This document shows positions 301 through 54,441 of a stretch of 57,758 bases of DNA, one piece after another; the stretch's first letter is position 1, and every line of letters starts with the position of its first letter. The position numbers and the translations under genes are program-made. The notes below the pieces were generated by a model. That model did not search any database and was not told the DNA's origin. It saw only the letters and a program-made list of their open reading frames with translations. This DNA is from Gammaproteobacteria bacterium (GTDB taxonomy: Bacteria > Pseudomonadota > Gammaproteobacteria > Arenicellales > Arenicellaceae): positions 12,875 to 70,632 of the forward strand of contig JAKVBA010000030.1 of assembly GCA_022447525.1 (NCBI GenBank). The letters are read 5' to 3'.

Positions 301-1323
301 ATGAAAGCGCTTTCAAAACTGCATGCAAAACCGGGAATCTGGATGGTGGATGCGCCTATGCCAGAATTTGGGCACAACGATTTGCTAATTAAGATCCGTA
401 AGACCGCTATTTGTGGAACGGATATGCATATCTATAACTGGGATGAGTGGTCGCAAAACACCATCCCGGTGCCCATGATCGTGGGCCACGAATATGTTGG
501 CGAAGTGGTCGACATGGGGCAAGAAGTCAAAGGTTTCCAAAAAGGTGATAGGGTTTCCGGAGAGGGGCACATTACTTGTGGTCACTGTCGAAACTGTAGA
601 GCAGGCAGGGTCCATCTCTGTAGAAATACCATAGGTGTTGGCGTTAATAGGCAGGGCGCTTTTGCCGAGTATCTAGTAATACCAGCATTTAATGCATTTA
701 AGATACCGGAAAATATTAGTGACGATTTGGCGGCTATCTTCGATCCATTTGGTAATGCTGTGCATACAGCGCTTTCTTTCGATCTAGTTGGCGAAGACGT
801 GTTAATTACTGGTGCTGGTCCAATCGGTATAATGGCTACAGCTGTGGCCAAGCATGTTGGTGCGCGCCATGTGGTGGTCACTGACGTTAATGATTATCGA
901 CTTGATCTCGCGATGAAAATGAACGCTACCAGAGCAGTAAATGTAGCTACAGAAAGCGTTGCTGATGTTATGGCTGAGTTAGGCATGACTGAGGGTTTTG
1001 ATGTCGGTATGGAAATGTCGGGTGTTCCATCGGCTTTTACTACCATGCTTGAAAATATGAATCATGGTGGCAAGATTGCGATGCTTGGCATTCCACCAAA
1101 AGATATGGGCATTGACTGGAACCAAGTTATTTTTAAAGGTCTTGAGTTAAAAGGGATTTATGGTCGTGAGATGTTTGAAACATGGTACAAAATGGCCAGT
1201 CTGATACAATCAGGGCTGGACTTGACCCCAATGTTGACCCATCAGTTTTCAATAGATGAATTTCAGATTGGGTTCGAGCAGATGGGTTCTGGTCAGTCTG
1301 GAAAGGTTATCTTGAATTGGTAA
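301..1323 (+). CDS. tdh: L-threonine 3-dehydrogenase
   Basis: A 340-residue zinc-dependent medium-chain dehydrogenase, close to the 341 residues of E. coli Tdh. Visible features are the catalytic zinc segment [13 protein letters not shown] (about residues 38-50), the GHE motif that follows, the structural-zinc cluster [15 protein letters not shown] (about 97-111), and the Rossmann glycine motif GAGPIGIMA (about 170). The enzyme oxidises L-threonine to 2-amino-3-oxobutyrate with NAD+, feeding Kbl encoded immediately upstream. The 12-bp gap to kbl indicates one transcript. The ribosome binding site is weak, which fits translational coupling. Identity is close to certain from length, motifs and operon partner. 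Confidence 0.96.
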
Positions 1324-14800: not shown

Positions 14801-16921
14801 TTAAAAATTAGTCTTGCGATCCCAGTATAGAACTTCAGCAGACTCTTTCTCAACCTTCTTTTTCGCTGCTTCTTGAGTCTTTTGGGCTACTTTTTCACCC
14901 TCAGCTAAAATATCTTCTAGAGTTTTTTGTAAGAACTTCAGCTTGTCGCTTTGCTTGACCAAGGTCCCCTGTTGGATATTAAGTTCTTCTAGTCGTGCCT
15001 CGACAGTATCAGAAGCCCTGTGAATGCGTTTAACACTCTCCAGTCTTCTCCTCAACTGAGTATGGTGCTCGCGAACGTGAGTTTCCATTGGCACCATAAG
15101 GTTATTATTCCAATTATTCGCATCTCTAAGCGCTCTAGAGAAAATTTTTCTCGATGCTGAGCACACAGACTCATAGAATTTATTTGTGATAGACATCTGT
15201 TCTTTGAAAAACAGAGTTCTGGTTTTCTTCAAATTGGCATGCTTGGCTTCTAGTCTTGCTACGTCCTGTTTATATCGTTCTAAACGCAAGCGTCGCATTT
15301 TGAAATTAGCGATCCCATGACCCTTCTCAAAATCACGGGTAATGTTCTCGGATAAATTAGCTATCTCGTTAGCTTGAGTAATCGCTGAATCGAGGTACGT
15401 ATTTAGGTGTTCGAAGTATTTTGAGATTGTCTTTTGCAGTGTTACCGAGGTCGCACATTTGGTCATATTATGCTTGGTAATAGCAATGAGCTTTTCGAGC
15501 TTTTCCTCTGACAAAGTCTTGGCTAGTTTTTTGGTCTCTTTAGCATAAACAGCCCGCAGCGCTTGATAACGTTGCATGTCTGTCTCTAAAGCTGACTTTT
15601 CCGCTTGCACCTTGAGCATGATATGCGAGATAACATCGGTGTTTTTGCTGCTTAACTGTCGTAACTCGGCGATATGTTCGTCGGCATCTTTTAGTCGTCC
15701 CCCCATTATTGATGACGCGGACTCAAGGATGCTTTCTAATGAACTGCGCACTTTGCTAACAACTATTGTTCTCTTTTCAGGGATTAGTCTGTCGGCAATG
15801 GCTTGTTCCAGAGCGCCGATATTGCTTCTTTTAAACAGCTCAGGGTCATTTTCCATTTTCGCCAGTAAGCCTTTTTGCGCTGAAACTGGAAAAATATTTT
15901 CTCTTTCTAACTTTAGAGCTTTGGATGTTGCCGTGACCTGTGCCTCTATTTCACTTTCGATCTGTGCGTCGCTTCGAATGCCATCCCATAATGCATCGAT
16001 TTTATTTAGAGCGACCAATTTTAATTGATTGGTCGCATCTTCCCCCTGACCTTTGGCTGATTTCTTTTTATGACTCACGCCGTCTAGGTGCGTTTCCCAA
16101 AGCTCTAAGTCAGTGGAGGTGACGCCGGTATCATGCGATAAAATAAAGATCACGGTATGTGCCGTCGACAGTTGGTTTATCGTTAGTTCTGGCTCGGCTC
16201 CTATCGCATTTAAACCGGGTGTATCTAGTATGACTAATCCCATTTCCAGTAATGGGTGAGGTAGATTTATCACCGCATGACGCCAACTTGGGATTTCAAC
16301 CTCGTCGAATTTGTTGACTGGCAACCCGATTTCGGAATTGTCGTTCTCCAGTAGATCAAAATTCAATTTCTTGGCGTAATTTTTACTGACCAGTTTATTA
16401 TCGGTCATGCCTTTAAGAGCTGCCGCAACACTATCCGAATTATCAGGATCGAATTCTATTTCCTGCCATAGTTCTTCATCTGCTTTGAGCTGGAACAATG
16501 GACGCTCATCTTGGCGTGACTCAATTGGTAACAACCTGATTGAAGCGGGTTTATCTGGATCGTAGAGCAATTCCGTTGGACACATGGTTGTTCGGCCAGA
16601 ACCAGATGGAAGTACTCTGCGTTTGTAGTTACCGAAAAAGATGGTGTTTATCATCTCCGATTTGCCACGAGAGAACTCAGCAACAAACGCTACCGAAAGG
16701 TTATCGTCGACTAGTGAACCTAGAACCGTCTCGAATTGATGATGAGTACGAAGGTCGGTGATGTTGTGGTCTTTCAGGAAGCGGCTTAGCTCTTGCACGG
16801 CGCCTCTAACACGTTCTCGCCATGCCGAATATTGCTCTATTTCCGTGTTTAAGATTTGCGTAGTCACATTGATCACCTTAGTAGATGTCGAATCATAGCT
16901 TGCAGACCAAATTTGTGTCAA
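14801..16921 (-). CDS. Bacterial dynamin-family GTPase
   Basis: A 706-residue protein with an N-terminal dynamin-type GTPase domain: P-loop AEFSRGKS (residues 81-88), the switch I threonines GRTTMCPTE (about 109-117), DTPGLN (233-238) and NKID (306-309). The remaining 350 residues are mostly charged helices likely to form a coiled-coil stalk (about 380-490 and 560-700). There is no obvious transmembrane paddle, so membrane binding would be peripheral. Family members bind and remodel membranes, but the role of single-gene bacterial dynamins is generally unknown. The start is TTG at 16921 without a clear ribosome binding site, and no ATG lies upstream of the P-loop, so the N terminus is uncertain. 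It is divergent from mrcB. Confidence 0.85.
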   Translation of the reverse strand: MTQIWSASYDSTSTKVINVTTQILNTEIEQYSAWRERVRGAVQELSRFLKDHNITDLRTHHQFETVLGSLVDDNLSVAFVAEFSRGKSEMINTIFFGNYKRRVLPSGSGRTTMCPTELLYDPDKPASIRLLPIESRQDERPLFQLKADEELWQEIEFDPDNSDSVAAALKGMTDNKLVSKNYAKKLNFDLLENDNSEIGLPVNKFDEVEIPSWRHAVINLPHPLLEMGLVILDTPGLNAIGAEPELTINQLSTAHTVIFILSHDTGVTSTDLELWETHLDGVSHKKKSAKGQGEDATNQLKLVALNKIDALWDGIRSDAQIESEIEAQVTATSKALKLERENIFPVSAQKGLLAKMENDPELFKRSNIGALEQAIADRLIPEKRTIVVSKVRSSLESILESASSIMGGRLKDADEHIAELRQLSSKNTDVISHIMLKVQAEKSALETDMQRYQALRAVYAKETKKLAKTLSEEKLEKLIAITKHNMTKCATSVTLQKTISKYFEHLNTYLDSAITQANEIANLSENITRDFEKGHGIANFKMRRLRLERYKQDVARLEAKHANLKKTRTLFFKEQMSITNKFYESVCSASRKIFSRALRDANNWNNNLMVPMETHVREHHTQLRRRLESVKRIHRASDTVEARLEELNIQQGTLVKQSDKLKFLQKTLEDILAEGEKVAQKTQEAAKKKVEKESAEVLYWDRKTNF

Positions 16922-17128: not shown

Positions 17129-19597
17129 ATGGCTAACAAGAAAACCCAAAATATAACCACGGATAAAAATAGTAGCAAGAAGCTTCGAGGTACTAAAGAC
17201 AACGCCGAATTTTCGATCCTCAAGCGTACGGCTGGAGCATTATGGCGCTTTTCTAAGTTAATTTTTGGGAGGGTGGTGTTAGGCTTGGTGGTCTGTTTGA
17301 TTGCTTACACCGCTTATTTGGACGTTATGATAAGGCGCGAATTTGAGGGGCAAAAATGGGCCATACCTGCTCATCTCTATACTCGCCCTTTGGAGCTATA
17401 TCTAGGTCAGACATTTGATGCCCAATTAGTTGAATCTGAATTGAAGGAGCTCGGCTACGTTGGTTCCTCATCGATTAATAGAGTAGGGACATATAATCTT
17501 AGCTCTCAAACTCTCAATGTACATCAAAGAGCATTTCGCTTTTGGGATGAAGACAGACCGCGCCAGAGAATAAGTCTCTCAGTCGTAGACGGGCGAATAG
17601 CTGATATAAAAGTAATAGAGCCGTCTGGCAATTATGAATCAACTGAGATTATTCGGCTAGAACCCAGACTGTTCGGCAGTGTATCGCCTTTAAACCATGA
17701 GGATCGTACCTTGGTAAAGTTAGATGAGGTCCCGCAGGCGCTCATCGACGCATTAATAGCTTACGAGGACAGGCAGTTTTACTCGCACTTCGGATTGAAT
17801 TTTAAGGGATTGGCAAGAGTGGCATTTTATGCAATCAAAACTGGGAAGATAATAGGGGGGGGCAGTTCGATAACTCAGCAGCTAGTCAAAAACTATTTTC
17901 TCACCTCTGAGCGTAGCCTCCGAAGAAAAGTACCCGAGATGATTATGTCAGTATTGCTCGAGGTTCATTACGACAAAAATGAAATTTTGCAAGCTTACAT
18001 CAATGAAGTAAACCTTGGGCAAGCAGGTAACCGAGCTATCCATGGTTTTGGTTTGGCAAGCCGATATTATTACGGGCGACCTCTAAACGAATTGGATCTT
18101 AGCGAGCTAACAACGCTGGTTGCGATTAATAATGCGCCGAGCAGATATAACCCACTTCGTCGTCCTGATAGGGTCGTTAAAAAGCGAGATATTGTTCTGA
18201 AATCCATGCTTGAGGCCAACAAGATAGATGATCGACAATATGAATTGGCCAAAGCATCTGCGCTAAATATCAGTCCCGTCGCAAGTCGCGCGGCGACATT
18301 ATCATATCCAAGTTTTTTGGGGCTGGTCAGAAAGGACTTGAAAGACGCGTACAAAAGTGAAGATCTGCATAGTGAGGGTCTGCAAATCTACACGACGATA
18401 AATCCAAGAGTTCAAGCCGTTCTCGAAACCTCTATTAGTCGTGAGTTGGATCGTATCGAAAAAGACCATAGTTTAGCTGAGGGAACTCTCCAGGCTGCCG
18501 CAGTTGTATTGCGCACCGACAACGGAGAGGTGGCTGCAATGCTTGGAGATCGAAACGCGAGTTTTGCTGGATTTAATCGTGCGTTAAAAGCAAAAAGGCC
18601 GGTAGGCTCATTATTGAAACCCTTTGTCTTTCTGACCGCATTGGAGTCACCAAATCGATACTCTTTAGCAAGTCTATTGCCAGACTCGCCAGTTGTTGTT
18701 GAGCAAAAAGGAAGTCCCGATTGGCAGCCTAAAAATTACGATGGTCGATCACATGGTGATGTCATGATGGTGGAAGCCTTGGCGCAGTCCTACAATTTAG
18801 CGACGGTAAACCTAGGTCTCGCATTGGGTTTAGATAAGGTTATCGATACACTCGAGCGAGTAGGCCATGATCGCTCTGTTAGAGAATTGCCCTCAGTTTT
18901 ACTTGGGGCGGTACCGATGAATACTCTTGATGTGTCTAAAATGTATTTAACGCTTGCGTCTGGCGGATTCAAGATCCCGGTGAAGTCAGTCAGATCAGTG
19001 CTAAGTGGAGAAGGCAAGCCGTTGAATCGATACGCCTTAGATATGGAGCAAGTGATCGAACCCGAATATACGTATTTGATCAATTATGCTCTCCAAGACG
19101 CTGTCCGTAATGGTACCGGCAGAGTGGTATTACGCGGATTTGAGTACGATTATGGGATTGCGGGTAAAACCGGAACCACAAACGACTACAGAGACAGCTG
19201 GTTTGCTGGATTCAGTGGAAACTATTTAACCGTGGTCTGGGTTGGGCGTGATGACAATAAACCAACTAGCTTAACTGGTGCCAGTGGTGCCGCTCGACTG
19301 TGGAAGGGGGTCATGCAGCGTTTGCCTCTGCAGCGACTTGAACTTGGGTTTAGTGAGGAAATTGTTTCCCAGAAATTCTTTTATTCTAAATTGGATGCTA
19401 CTGAGCGTTGCACTGAGCATCGAACATTGCCTGTGTTGCTGAGCTCTTTAGAGCTGGAAAATATGCCTTGCCCGGATAGAATCGAGTATGATGACCGAGA
19501 TTTAGAGGAGTCAAAATATTTCGAGCCGACCGATGAGGAGATGCCAATTGAGCGCAGACCAAGGAAGAAGAGTCTCTGGGAAAAAATTTTTGGCTAG
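17129..19597 (+). CDS. mrcB: Penicillin-binding protein 1B (bifunctional peptidoglycan synthase)
   Basis: An 822-residue class A PBP. A cytoplasmic basic tail and one membrane helix (about residues 44-62) are followed by a UB2H domain (about 80-165), the GT51 glycosyltransferase with catalytic Glu213 in EDRQFYSHFG, and the transpeptidase. Transpeptidase motifs are SLLK with Ser494, SYN at 554-556 and KTG at 680-682. It polymerises lipid II and cross-links peptides in the periplasm. The UB2H domain marks the PBP1b rather than the PBP1a branch, and is the site where Lpo-type activators act. The next gene, 42 bp downstream, encodes a TPR lipoprotein fitting LpoP. Confidence 0.96.
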   Translation: MANKKTQNITTDKNSSKKLRGTKDNAEFSILKRTAGALWRFSKLIFGRVVLGLVVCLIAYTAYLDVMIRREFEGQKWAIPAHLYTRPLELYLGQTFDAQLVESELKELGYVGSSSINRVGTYNLSSQTLNVHQRAFRFWDEDRPRQRISLSVVDGRIADIKVIEPSGNYESTEIIRLEPRLFGSVSPLNHEDRTLVKLDEVPQALIDALIAYEDRQFYSHFGLNFKGLARVAFYAIKTGKIIGGGSSITQQLVKNYFLTSERSLRRKVPEMIMSVLLEVHYDKNEILQAYINEVNLGQAGNRAIHGFGLASRYYYGRPLNELDLSELTTLVAINNAPSRYNPLRRPDRVVKKRDIVLKSMLEANKIDDRQYELAKASALNISPVASRAATLSYPSFLGLVRKDLKDAYKSEDLHSEGLQIYTTINPRVQAVLETSISRELDRIEKDHSLAEGTLQAAAVVLRTDNGEVAAMLGDRNASFAGFNRALKAKRPVGSLLKPFVFLTALESPNRYSLASLLPDSPVVVEQKGSPDWQPKNYDGRSHGDVMMVEALAQSYNLATVNLGLALGLDKVIDTLERVGHDRSVRELPSVLLGAVPMNTLDVSKMYLTLASGGFKIPVKSVRSVLSGEGKPLNRYALDMEQVIEPEYTYLINYALQDAVRNGTGRVVLRGFEYDYGIAGKTGTTNDYRDSWFAGFSGNYLTVVWVGRDDNKPTSLTGASGAARLWKGVMQRLPLQRLELGFSEEIVSQKFFYSKLDATERCTEHRTLPVLLSSLELENMPCPDRIEYDDRDLEESKYFEPTDEEMPIERRPRKKSLWEKIFG

Positions 19598-19639: not shown

Positions 19640-20161
19640 ATGATTAACTTTAGAAATCCCTTTGCTTTTATTTTTGGGTTTATGGCGATGATGCAGCTCG
19701 CTGGCTGTGCTAGCTCTGCGAGAGTTGCGCCTGATCGGAGCGTTCCTGCACCGATTGAGGAGAGAGCGATAGTTGATGGCAAAGCTTTGCCTCTGCCTGA
19801 AGGGCCAGATTTGCGAATTGAAACCATGCAAGAGAGGAAAGTTGTATCGCCCGTAGTTAAGCGATTAATTGCCTCAGCGCGCTCGCAGACCTTGTCTCAA
19901 GATTGGGATGGCGCCAGCGGTTCACTTGAGAGGGCATTGCGAATTGAGCCAAGAAATCCTAACCTGTGGTCTGCACTCGCCGAAGTGAAATGCGAGCAGG
20001 GAGCTTGGCAAAAGTGTATACAATTGGCAGCAAAGTCGAACACCTTATCTCGGGCTGATAGTTCGCTTAGAAGAAGAAATTGGCATCTGATGGCAACTGC
20101 GCATAAAGCGAATGGCAACAACGAGGCAGCGCAGCAATTTTTCGACAAACTGGCAAAATAG
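19640..20161 (+). CDS. lpoP: TPR lipoprotein, probable PBP1b activator LpoP
   Basis: A 173-residue protein with a lipoprotein signal (hydrophobic FAFIFGFMAMMQLAGC, Cys23), a proline-rich linker (about 25-65), and a helical region (about 75-170) with tetratricopeptide repeats, e.g. WDGASGSLERALRIEPRNPNLW. Gene order mrcB followed by a TPR lipoprotein is that of P. aeruginosa ponB-lpoP, where LpoP is an outer-membrane lipoprotein required for PBP1b activity. The 42-bp spacing suggests co-transcription. The assignment rests on architecture and position; TPR lipoproteins are diverse, so the gene name is a strong inference rather than proven. Confidence 0.75.
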   Translation: MINFRNPFAFIFGFMAMMQLAGCASSARVAPDRSVPAPIEERAIVDGKALPLPEGPDLRIETMQERKVVSPVVKRLIASARSQTLSQDWDGASGSLERALRIEPRNPNLWSALAEVKCEQGAWQKCIQLAAKSNTLSRADSSLRRRNWHLMATAHKANGNNEAAQQFFDKLAK

Positions 20162-20227
20162 TGAGTCTAAATATTAAAAATGACACTGAAGCCATTGATT
20201 TTTCAGTCGAATCACCCGAATGGGTAA

Positions 20228-20256
20228 TAGACCCCTATCTATTTGGGGCTTACTAT
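20228..20256 (+). promoter_or_regulatory. Weak candidate promoter for the structured RNA
   Basis: TAGACC (20228-20233, 4 of 6 matches to the -35 consensus), a 17-nt spacer and TACTAT (20251-20256, 4 of 6). It would start transcription near 20262 and give an RNA of about 190 nt ending at the terminator. The match is weak, and read-through from the mrcB-lpoP operon is an equal possibility. Confidence 0.25.
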
Positions 20257-20261
20257 TATTG

Positions 20262-20450
20262 TCTGGCGTAAAGCCTAAGTTCCTAACGGGGGGACAACAA
20301 GAGGTGCCAACGCTGTAGGGCCTTCTCAAGGTCTTACAAAGGGTCACCTCAAATTAGAAGATGATACGGGTAGGCTATCCAGAACGCGATTGGTTTACCT
20401 ATCGTATCGGGGGGACTAAAGGCAGTGATTGCAAAATCACTGCTTTTTTT
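20262..20450 (+). ncRNA. Candidate structured non-coding RNA (or lpoP 3' UTR) with two G6 motifs
   Basis: No ORF is seen here, but pairing is dense. GAGGTG (20301-20306) pairs with CACCTC (20345-20350), enclosing a GGCCTT/AAGGTC hairpin. GATACG (20363-20368) pairs with CGTATC (20403-20408), extended by TAGG/CCTA. Two unpaired GGGGGGAC motifs (20288-20295 and 20409-20416) each lie next to a helix. A strong terminator ends the element. I cannot match it to 6S, tmRNA, SRP RNA, RNase P RNA or a riboswitch I know. A second locus at 30854-30940 shares the G6 motif and its context. Transcription and strand are inferred from the terminator orientation. Confidence 0.5.
20418..20450 (+). terminator. 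Rho-independent terminator
   Basis: A 9-bp stem GCAGTGATT (20422-20430), loop GCAA, AATCACTGC (20435-20443), followed by seven T. The T-run is only on the plus-strand side, so it ends the transcript carrying the structured element and possibly the mrcB-lpoP operon. Confidence 0.9.
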
Positions 20451-20500
20451 ATCCGCGATCACTCAACAAATAGTTTTAGATAGCTGTTGCAATTGGGAAG

Positions 20501-20968
20501 CTAGTTATAGATAAAAATATATAAATTTAGGCTAGTGGCTAAGCAGAGCCAGGCAAAATAGGGTGCCATTAGCAAGGCCATCGCATGATGTGAGGTTTTT
20601 AGCGATCGAAATATGAATAAGCCGACTAAGCTTGATAGGACGACTAAATTTGCTAGGCCCAACAGTATCCATTGTTGACCAAAAAATATCCAAGACCACA
20701 TCGCATTAAATGCAAGTTGGATAAACCAAAGTTTGAGTAATAGGCCATCGTTTGATTTGCTTGCTTTAAAACCCGTCCAAGCGATCATACAGTACAGAAC
20801 GGTCCAAACCACTGGAAAGGCAATGTTGGGTGGGTTCCATGGTGCTTTATTGAGTTGTTGGTACCATTCCCCTGGAACAAAAAGACCTCCGAATAAGAAC
20901 ACTACCAAGCTCAGAAGCCCATAAAGAAATGGGCTTCTCATCAACACACTAGTAAATTCATTGCCCAT
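20501..20968 (-). CDS. tspO: TspO/MBR family membrane protein
   Basis: A 155-residue protein with five predicted membrane helices. The conserved WYQQLNKAPWNPPNIAFPVVWTVLY segment (split here as WYQQLNKAPWNPP and FPVVWTVLY) and FNAMWSWIFFG identify the TspO/MBR (peripheral benzodiazepine receptor) family, which binds porphyrins and in some bacteria affects stress responses and tetrapyrrole control. The start at 20968 is chosen because GAGGAG stands 6 nt before it; an upstream in-frame codon at 20995 lacks such a site. The gene overlaps the end of the carbonic anhydrase gene by 11 bp, so the two are translationally coupled. Confidence 0.9.
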   Translation of the reverse strand: MGNEFTSVLMRSPFLYGLLSLVVFLFGGLFVPGEWYQQLNKAPWNPPNIAFPVVWTVLYCMIAWTGFKASKSNDGLLLKLWFIQLAFNAMWSWIFFGQQWILLGLANLVVLSSLVGLFIFRSLKTSHHAMALLMAPYFAWLCLATSLNLYIFIYN

Positions 20969-21509
20969 ATTGCTCTCCTCGATACTCTTGCGCAAGTCGT
21001 TTGTAACGTTCTCTATTTATCTCGAAAAATTCTAAGTCCCGTTCGTTGATGTTACGCATTTTTTTTGCCGGTTTCCCTGCCCAGACCTCACCCGATTTGA
21101 CTTGTTTCCCGGGTGTGACAAGCGCACCCGCGGCAATCATCGCGCCTTTCTCTATCAAACAGTCATCCATAATGCACGATTGAATGCCGATAAAAGCATC
21201 ATCCTCTATCGTGCAAGCATGCAATACAGCACTGTGGCCTACCGTTACATTATCTCCAATGTAGGTGCCTTGCCCCATTTCCGCACAATGGATCATAGTT
21301 AGGTCTTGGATATTTGTTCCACTGCCAATACGAATTTCATTGACATCACCTCTGATAACACATCCAAACCATATGCTGGACTCAGCGCCTATTTGTGTGT
21401 CCCCAATGATGGTGGCATCTTGAGCAACAAACACCGAGGGATGAATCTTTGGAAGTACCCCTCGATACGCCAAGATATTTCCTCGTGTCCTGATCTTGCT
21501 AATCATCAT
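20958..21509 (-). CDS. Gamma-class carbonic anhydrase family protein (YrdA/PaaY-like)
   Basis: A 183-residue left-handed beta-helix protein built of hexapeptide repeats (IGDTQIG, IRIGSGTNIQD, TYIGDNVTVGHS). Zinc-ligand histidines expected for gamma carbonic anhydrases are visible in MIHC, GHSAVLHAC. A helical tail (about 155-183) packs along the trimer in this family. The likely reaction is CO2 hydration, but YrdA-type homologues often have weak or no activity. AGGAT seven bases upstream supports the ATG at 21509 over the longer frame to 21563. It is co-transcribed with tspO. Confidence 0.9.
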   Translation of the reverse strand: MMISKIRTRGNILAYRGVLPKIHPSVFVAQDATIIGDTQIGAESSIWFGCVIRGDVNEIRIGSGTNIQDLTMIHCAEMGQGTYIGDNVTVGHSAVLHACTIEDDAFIGIQSCIMDDCLIEKGAMIAAGALVTPGKQVKSGEVWAGKPAKKMRNINERDLEFFEINRERYKRLAQEYRGEQYGQ

Positions 21510-53955: not shown

Positions 53956-54005
53956 AACGTTGGTTACTCGATCTATATATGATCAATTTCTTTTCTTAGT
54001 AATTC

Positions 54006-54047
54006 CTTTTGATCTAAGTATTACTACTTTTGATCTAAGTATTACTA
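54006..54047. repeat. Perfect 21-bp tandem duplication
   Basis: The 21 bases starting CTTTTGATCTAAGTATT occur twice head to tail (54006-54026 and 54027-54047) with no mismatch. It looks like a recent slippage or duplication in the argD upstream region. Confidence 0.9.
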
Positions 54048-54110
54048 ATAGAGTCTAATTATTAATAAAGTTCTGCTATCTGATTTGCAAAACTTCCATC
54101 AATTAAAAAG

Positions 54111-54132
54111 AAAAGCGCCGGCAGGCGCTTTT
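54111..54132 (-). terminator. Terminator-like hairpin upstream of argD
   Basis: AAAAGCGCC (54111-54119), loop GGCA, GGCGCTTTT. In the minus direction the stem is followed by TTTTCTTTTT, the better U-tract. It lies between divergent genes, 156 bp before argD, so it could end a short leader or act as an attenuator. Confidence 0.65.
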
Positions 54133-54441
54133 GTTCTATTTCTTACTACTATTATTTGTGAAGTTTAATTGGAATATAGCGATTATTCAAATTTTTATTT
54201 GAAATAATATTCTTTATAAATAATAAAAACAGAATATATTTTGGTTTATAAAGTCAGATAGTAATTATATTTAATAAAAATAGCACTGAGTAGATCTAAT
54301 TTTTAAAAAAGATAGTCATTAAATTGTTGATATTTATAGATAAAATATAAATAAATTGGTATTTATTACTTCTCTATTGACCTTTTGTGCTGAAAACAAG
54401 ACACTACGCGCTGTTGAAATTCCGAAACTGAGCTAATGGTT

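Follow-up and report, generated by a model that had tools for sequence, protein, structure and literature searches.

The mrcB-lpoP-tspO locus

The stretch of DNA analysed here, referred to as the window, comprises 57,758 nt from an Arenicella-like gammaproteobacterial MAG (marine Arenicella). It carries an mrcB-like gene for PBP1b followed by an lpoP-like gene in a presumed operon, and mrcB is followed by lpoP in the compared loci as well. LpoP is known from Pseudomonas as an outer-membrane activator of PBP1b (PMC7267771). The lpoP product has a LAGC lipobox at its N-terminus and C23 is invariant across the genus alignment. Between lpoP (+) and the convergent tspO (−) lies the element described below, and no gene follows it on its own strand. 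Downstream of the element, tspO/MBR is accompanied by a gene with hexapeptide repeats (gamma-carbonic-anhydrase-like) and by one for an AFG1/ZapE ATPase. The genome also encodes Hfq (E 2.5e-29) and CsrA. The features of the locus are as follows.

17129..19597 (+), mrcB-like PBP1b gene with UB2H, transglycosylase and transpeptidase domains (Pfam PF14814, PF00912, PF00905)
19640..20161 (+), lpoP-like TPR lipoprotein gene, second gene of the presumed operon (Pfam TPR matches)
20215..20248 (+), 12-bp hairpin 3' of lpoP (fold −14.3 kcal/mol)
20228..20256 (+), sigma70-like promoter candidate TAGACC-17-TACTAT (8/12), predicted RNA start near 20262
20249-20264 (+), A/U-rich stretch after the 12-bp hairpin
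20278..20284 (+), AGUUCCU, partner for either GGGGGGAC copy in alternative predicted folds
20288..20295 (+), GGGGGGAC copy 1, seen in the sequence (pairing probability 0.49 in the 20262-20450 transcript)
20296-20300 (+), predicted open segment
20301..20350 (+), hairpin P1, GAGGTG/CACCTC with inner TGTAGGGCCTT/AAGGTCTTACA (z −4.8; pairing probability 0.96-0.99)
20351-20362 (+), predicted open segment between P1 and P2
20363..20408 (+), hairpin P2, GATACG/CGTATC with inner pairs (z −2.7; pairing probability 0.95)
20409..20416 (+), GGGGGGAC copy 2, seen in the sequence (pairing probability 0.55 in the 20262-20450 transcript)
20418..20450 (+), intrinsic terminator hairpin with seven T, ending 289 nt past the lpoP stop
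20501..20995 (−), convergent tspO/MBR gene (Pfam PF03073)

A weak terminator-like site (20233-20248) falls within the 12-bp hairpin 3' of lpoP, and this hairpin together with the A/U-rich stretch may act as a weak terminator or as an RNase E processing site. The sigma70-like candidate is the sole one upstream of the element; since 1.2 such sites are expected in shuffled sequence, it is not evidence of a promoter by itself. Over the 40 bp directly 3' of lpoP (20170-20209) the sequence matches, at 88% identity (E 2e-3), the beginning of a gene for an HNH endonuclease in Escherichia Dhillonvirus phages, and would here read ATGACACTGAAGCCATTGATTTTTCAG... as a short ORF; the likeness is probably due to chance.

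The sequence-only reading of this DNA had described the stretch as devoid of ORFs. This was nearly right, apart from two short ORFs that overlap the element: a 40-aa ATG ORF at 20361-20483 (+), which has no evident Shine-Dalgarno sequence at a proper distance, and a 57-aa GTG ORF on the opposite strand. The tail is without a convincing ORF.

Predicted fold of the element

The helices proposed earlier, both copies of GGGGGGAC and the T7 terminator were each found in the sequence. The element proper (20279-20450, +) consists of three hairpin regions, the two GGGGGGAC copies and the intrinsic terminator with its seven T. In P1 an outer helix (GAGGTG 20301-20306 with CACCTC 20345-20350) encloses an inner stem of 11 bp (20314-20324 / 20328-20338), and the outer helix of P2 is formed by GATACG 20363-20368 and CGTATC 20403-20408. 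The core of the terminator, GCAGTGATT/AATCACTGC at 20422-20430 / 20435-20443, is followed by T7 at 20444-20450, a T-run that belongs to the + strand. Because of this terminator the mrcB-lpoP transcript, or a short transcript, likely ends at 20450, as judged from the sequence.

For 20250-20460 (+) the predicted folding energy is −80.3 kcal/mol (z −6.0), and none of 200 shuffled sequences was as stable, which bears out the earlier claim that the pairing exceeds chance. The opposite strand of the element gave a z of −3.0. A fold scan of both strands of the entire window in 960 windows of 170 nt, with 20 shuffles per window, placed the one starting at 20281 (+) at rank 1 with a z of −6.4, against a background with a mean z of −0.25 and a standard deviation of 1.17. 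After removal of the terminator the element still gave z values of −4.3 to −4.9 (20279-20411, −4.3; P1 alone, −4.8). Since z stays below −4, the terminator alone is insufficient to explain the stability. Both the terminator and the predicted structure are genuine features of the sequence.

Strong folding was also seen elsewhere in the scan. Rank 2 (z −5.8) went to 361-530 (+), which is coding sequence inside a zinc-dehydrogenase-like ORF (301-1323). The segment 15961-16130, likewise coding, lies in a dynamin-like GTPase ORF (14801-16921, −) and folds strongly on both strands (z −4.9 and −4.2). An intergenic segment, 54001-54170, between the class-III aminotransferase and argininosuccinate synthase genes, reached z −4.7 on the minus strand and carries a tandem TTTTGATCTAAGTATTACTA repeat and a terminator-like AAAAGCGCCGGCAGGCGCTTTT.

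The two GGGGGGAC copies take part in alternative predicted folds. In the lowest-energy fold of the 189-nt transcript (20262-20450) AGUUCCU is joined to copy 2, giving a multibranch structure that encloses P1 and P2, whereas in a shorter transcript, or with flanks added, GUUCCU pairs with copy 1. Both copies thus compete for one partner, and the duplicated GGGGGGAC may render the fold bistable, a two-state prediction that derives from energies only. The GGGGGGAC-type motif GGGGGGACWA occurs five times in the genome (two in the element, two in coding sequence, one beside a tRNA gene) against three for the reversed control; it is at chance level, not enriched, and is not a genome-wide motif. The paired pattern, searched in 100 genomes, was matched in the own genome only. 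Long G-runs, GGGGGGGGAC and GGGGGGGAGG, adjoin a tRNA gene (G000:C124 ~13720, L119) and are possibly an assembly or homopolymer issue.

Known RNA families and relatives in other genomes

Searching the window with all 4227 families of Rfam 15 at gathering cut-offs gave no match, and the proposal of a structured RNA outside the known families stands. A relaxed Rfam search returned only sub-threshold chance matches (mir-268, 22.6/47 bits; SpF25, 16.6/48 bits). The 6S RNA (RF00013) was rejected as an identity for the element, the 6S RNA of this genome being located on another contig (G000:C24:27092-27307). A riboswitch or attenuator is unlikely because the next gene is the convergent tspO and there is no same-strand gene downstream to regulate in cis; the remaining options are a 3' UTR and an independent sRNA.

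A blastn search of 99 other genomes, among them 17 congeners, did not find the element. A covariance model built from the single sequence (172 positions, 55 pairs) recovered only the own genome among 100 genomes, and an exact scan of viral contigs gave no match to the element. Several congeners have an lpoP-tspO gap of 15-112 bp without the element and others have different neighbours. With no homologue detectable in the 99 other genomes, a conserved, function-bearing structure is without comparative support, and the element is at present a candidate on those terms. The nearest congeners share only ~69% identity in mrcB and ~57% in lpoP. At such divergence an intergenic RNA that is unconstrained or evolves fast would no longer be recognised, and the missing homologues therefore do not disprove a function.

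Two congeners, G013 and G003, have long lpoP-tspO gaps (391 and 332 bp, respectively) in which a terminator ends 280 and 287 nt past the lpoP stop. These terminator-capped stretches fold with z values of −4.3 (G013) and −4.7 (G003), and of −2.5 and −2.0 without the terminator. In the tree, the own genome and G013 are sisters (support 91/87) and G003 falls outside their clade. In unselected alignments the similarity of the element to the G013 and G003 stretches was not significant; for G013, 23 to 189 of 500 shuffles scored equally. Under the different scoring schemes, between 5 and 40 of 500 shuffles did as well as a 60-nt segment picked post hoc, AGAACG...GGGGGGA. Covariance models made from the two gaps had no significant independent match elsewhere; the search with the G013 model covered 21 genomes, G013 itself not among them, and so was run without a positive control. 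This model aligned over its full length with 20308-20449, at the corresponding place, for 12.7 bits; the terminator probably supplies most of this score, since a terminator on the other strand reaches 8.5 bits. The G003 gap (L021 2123-2300) also contains a hairpin, CCAACGGGGATGTTGG, with GGGA in the loop, which resembles a CsrA-binding hairpin.

Interpretation and comparison with known systems

The element is probably a small RNA or a structured mRNA tail restricted to this species. We tentatively favour reading it as the structured 3' end of mrcB-lpoP, capped by a terminator, which might accumulate as a ~170-190-nt, possibly Hfq-bound sRNA; accumulation of a stable RNA of 170-190 nt is plausible to the same, somewhat less than even, degree. 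The RNA, made from mrcB-lpoP or started by a weak promoter near 20228-20256, would end at the T7 terminator at 20450, and RNase E or a similar nuclease would trim it in the A/U-rich stretch at ~20249-20264. The P1, P2 and terminator hairpins would shield the resulting ~170-190-nt RNA, which, bound to Hfq, could act on a putative target through the open segments 20296-20300 and 20351-20362. The evidence in favour includes the fold (z about −6, rank 1 of 960), the T7 terminator, the tail without a convincing ORF, the gene layout and the presence of hfq, as well as the structured, terminator-capped stretches of G013 and G003 at a similar distance from the lpoP stop. By this layout the element, which has no ORF of its own, uses the same intrinsic terminator as the mRNA upstream, as in 3' UTR-derived sRNAs. 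Terminators of Hfq-binding sRNAs typically have at least seven T (PMC5558911). Counted against the favoured explanation are the lack of conservation, the short gaps of other congeners, the dissimilarity of the G013 and G003 sequences and the lack of a convincing promoter. The earlier suggestion of an sRNA or 3' UTR RNA of the PBP1b operon agrees with the layout, but no homologue is detectable in 99 other genomes.

A structured but functionally inert 3' UTR is a serious competitor, and we regard it as quite possible. The locus would then hold no regulatory RNA, just a bidirectional terminator between convergent genes with additional stems whose greatest effect would be a slower 3' decay of the mrcB-lpoP mRNA. 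The convergent layout, the lack of conservation inside the genus and the failure to find a promoter are all in line with this, and congeners with a 15-112 bp gap manage without the element; two stable hairpins besides the terminator, with z below −4 when it is removed, are nevertheless unusual even for this window. An independently transcribed, fast-evolving sRNA gene at the lpoP-tspO junction, with positional orthologues in G013 and G003, is unlikely. Terminators ending 289, 280 and 287 nt past the lpoP stop, structured stretches in all three genomes, the sister relation with G013, the end-to-end match of its model and the post hoc similarity hint AGAACG...GGGGGGA.TAAA (6 of 500 shuffles) point to such a gene, but the terminator may account for most of the model score, G003 belongs to a different clade, the unselected alignments are unconvincing and the G013 fold has no evident counterpart of P2. 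Less probable still is a fast-evolving Arenicella lpoP-tspO sRNA that is bistable via the duplicated GGGGGGAC and links expression of the PBP1b activator to envelope regulation; AGUUCCU would pair with copy 1 in a local hairpin or with copy 2 in a stem that encloses P1 and P2.

Two other origins received very little credence. The palindromic hairpins, the intergenic position and the inner stem of P1 with its GTAG-type start recall what is left of a mobile element or palindromic repeat (REP/MITE). Yet the P1 stem is single copy in the genome with up to three mismatches allowed, blastn of the element found no second copy in the genome, and plasmids and phages gave no match over the element, only the 40-bp stretch outside it, so that this origin is highly improbable. 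We give the least credit of all to a CsrA-sequestering RNA of the CsrB/RsmY/RsmZ type with the GGGGGGAC copies as GGA sites. The genome has csrA and a GGA lies inside each copy, but two GGA in 189 nt is about the chance number, none is in a hairpin loop although many GGA in loops characterise the class, and Rfam gave no match to the CsrB, RsmY or RsmZ families in either the gathering or the relaxed search.

If the favoured 3'-end RNA is expressed, the operon that encodes a peptidoglycan synthase and the lipoprotein activating it would carry an sRNA at its end, and this would illustrate the origin and turnover of structured sRNAs at one fixed place in the genomes of a genus. No sRNA study of Arenicella was found in the literature searched.

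The element is similar to 6S RNA (RF00013) in length (about 180-190 nt) but differs from it in fold. The predicted RNA resembles the ProQ-associated structured sRNAs (PMC5391140) in being extensively paired with a 3' terminator stem. Gammaproteobacterial 3' UTR-derived Hfq-dependent sRNAs (reviewed in PMC7821165) share with it the position at an mRNA 3' end, the use of the mRNA's intrinsic terminator with T7 and an A/U-rich candidate cleavage site upstream. Unlike these sRNAs, the element has no conserved seed, is not conserved in the genus and is so far a predicted RNA. On present evidence it is a candidate of a known kind, a 3' UTR or intergenic sRNA, and not a new class.
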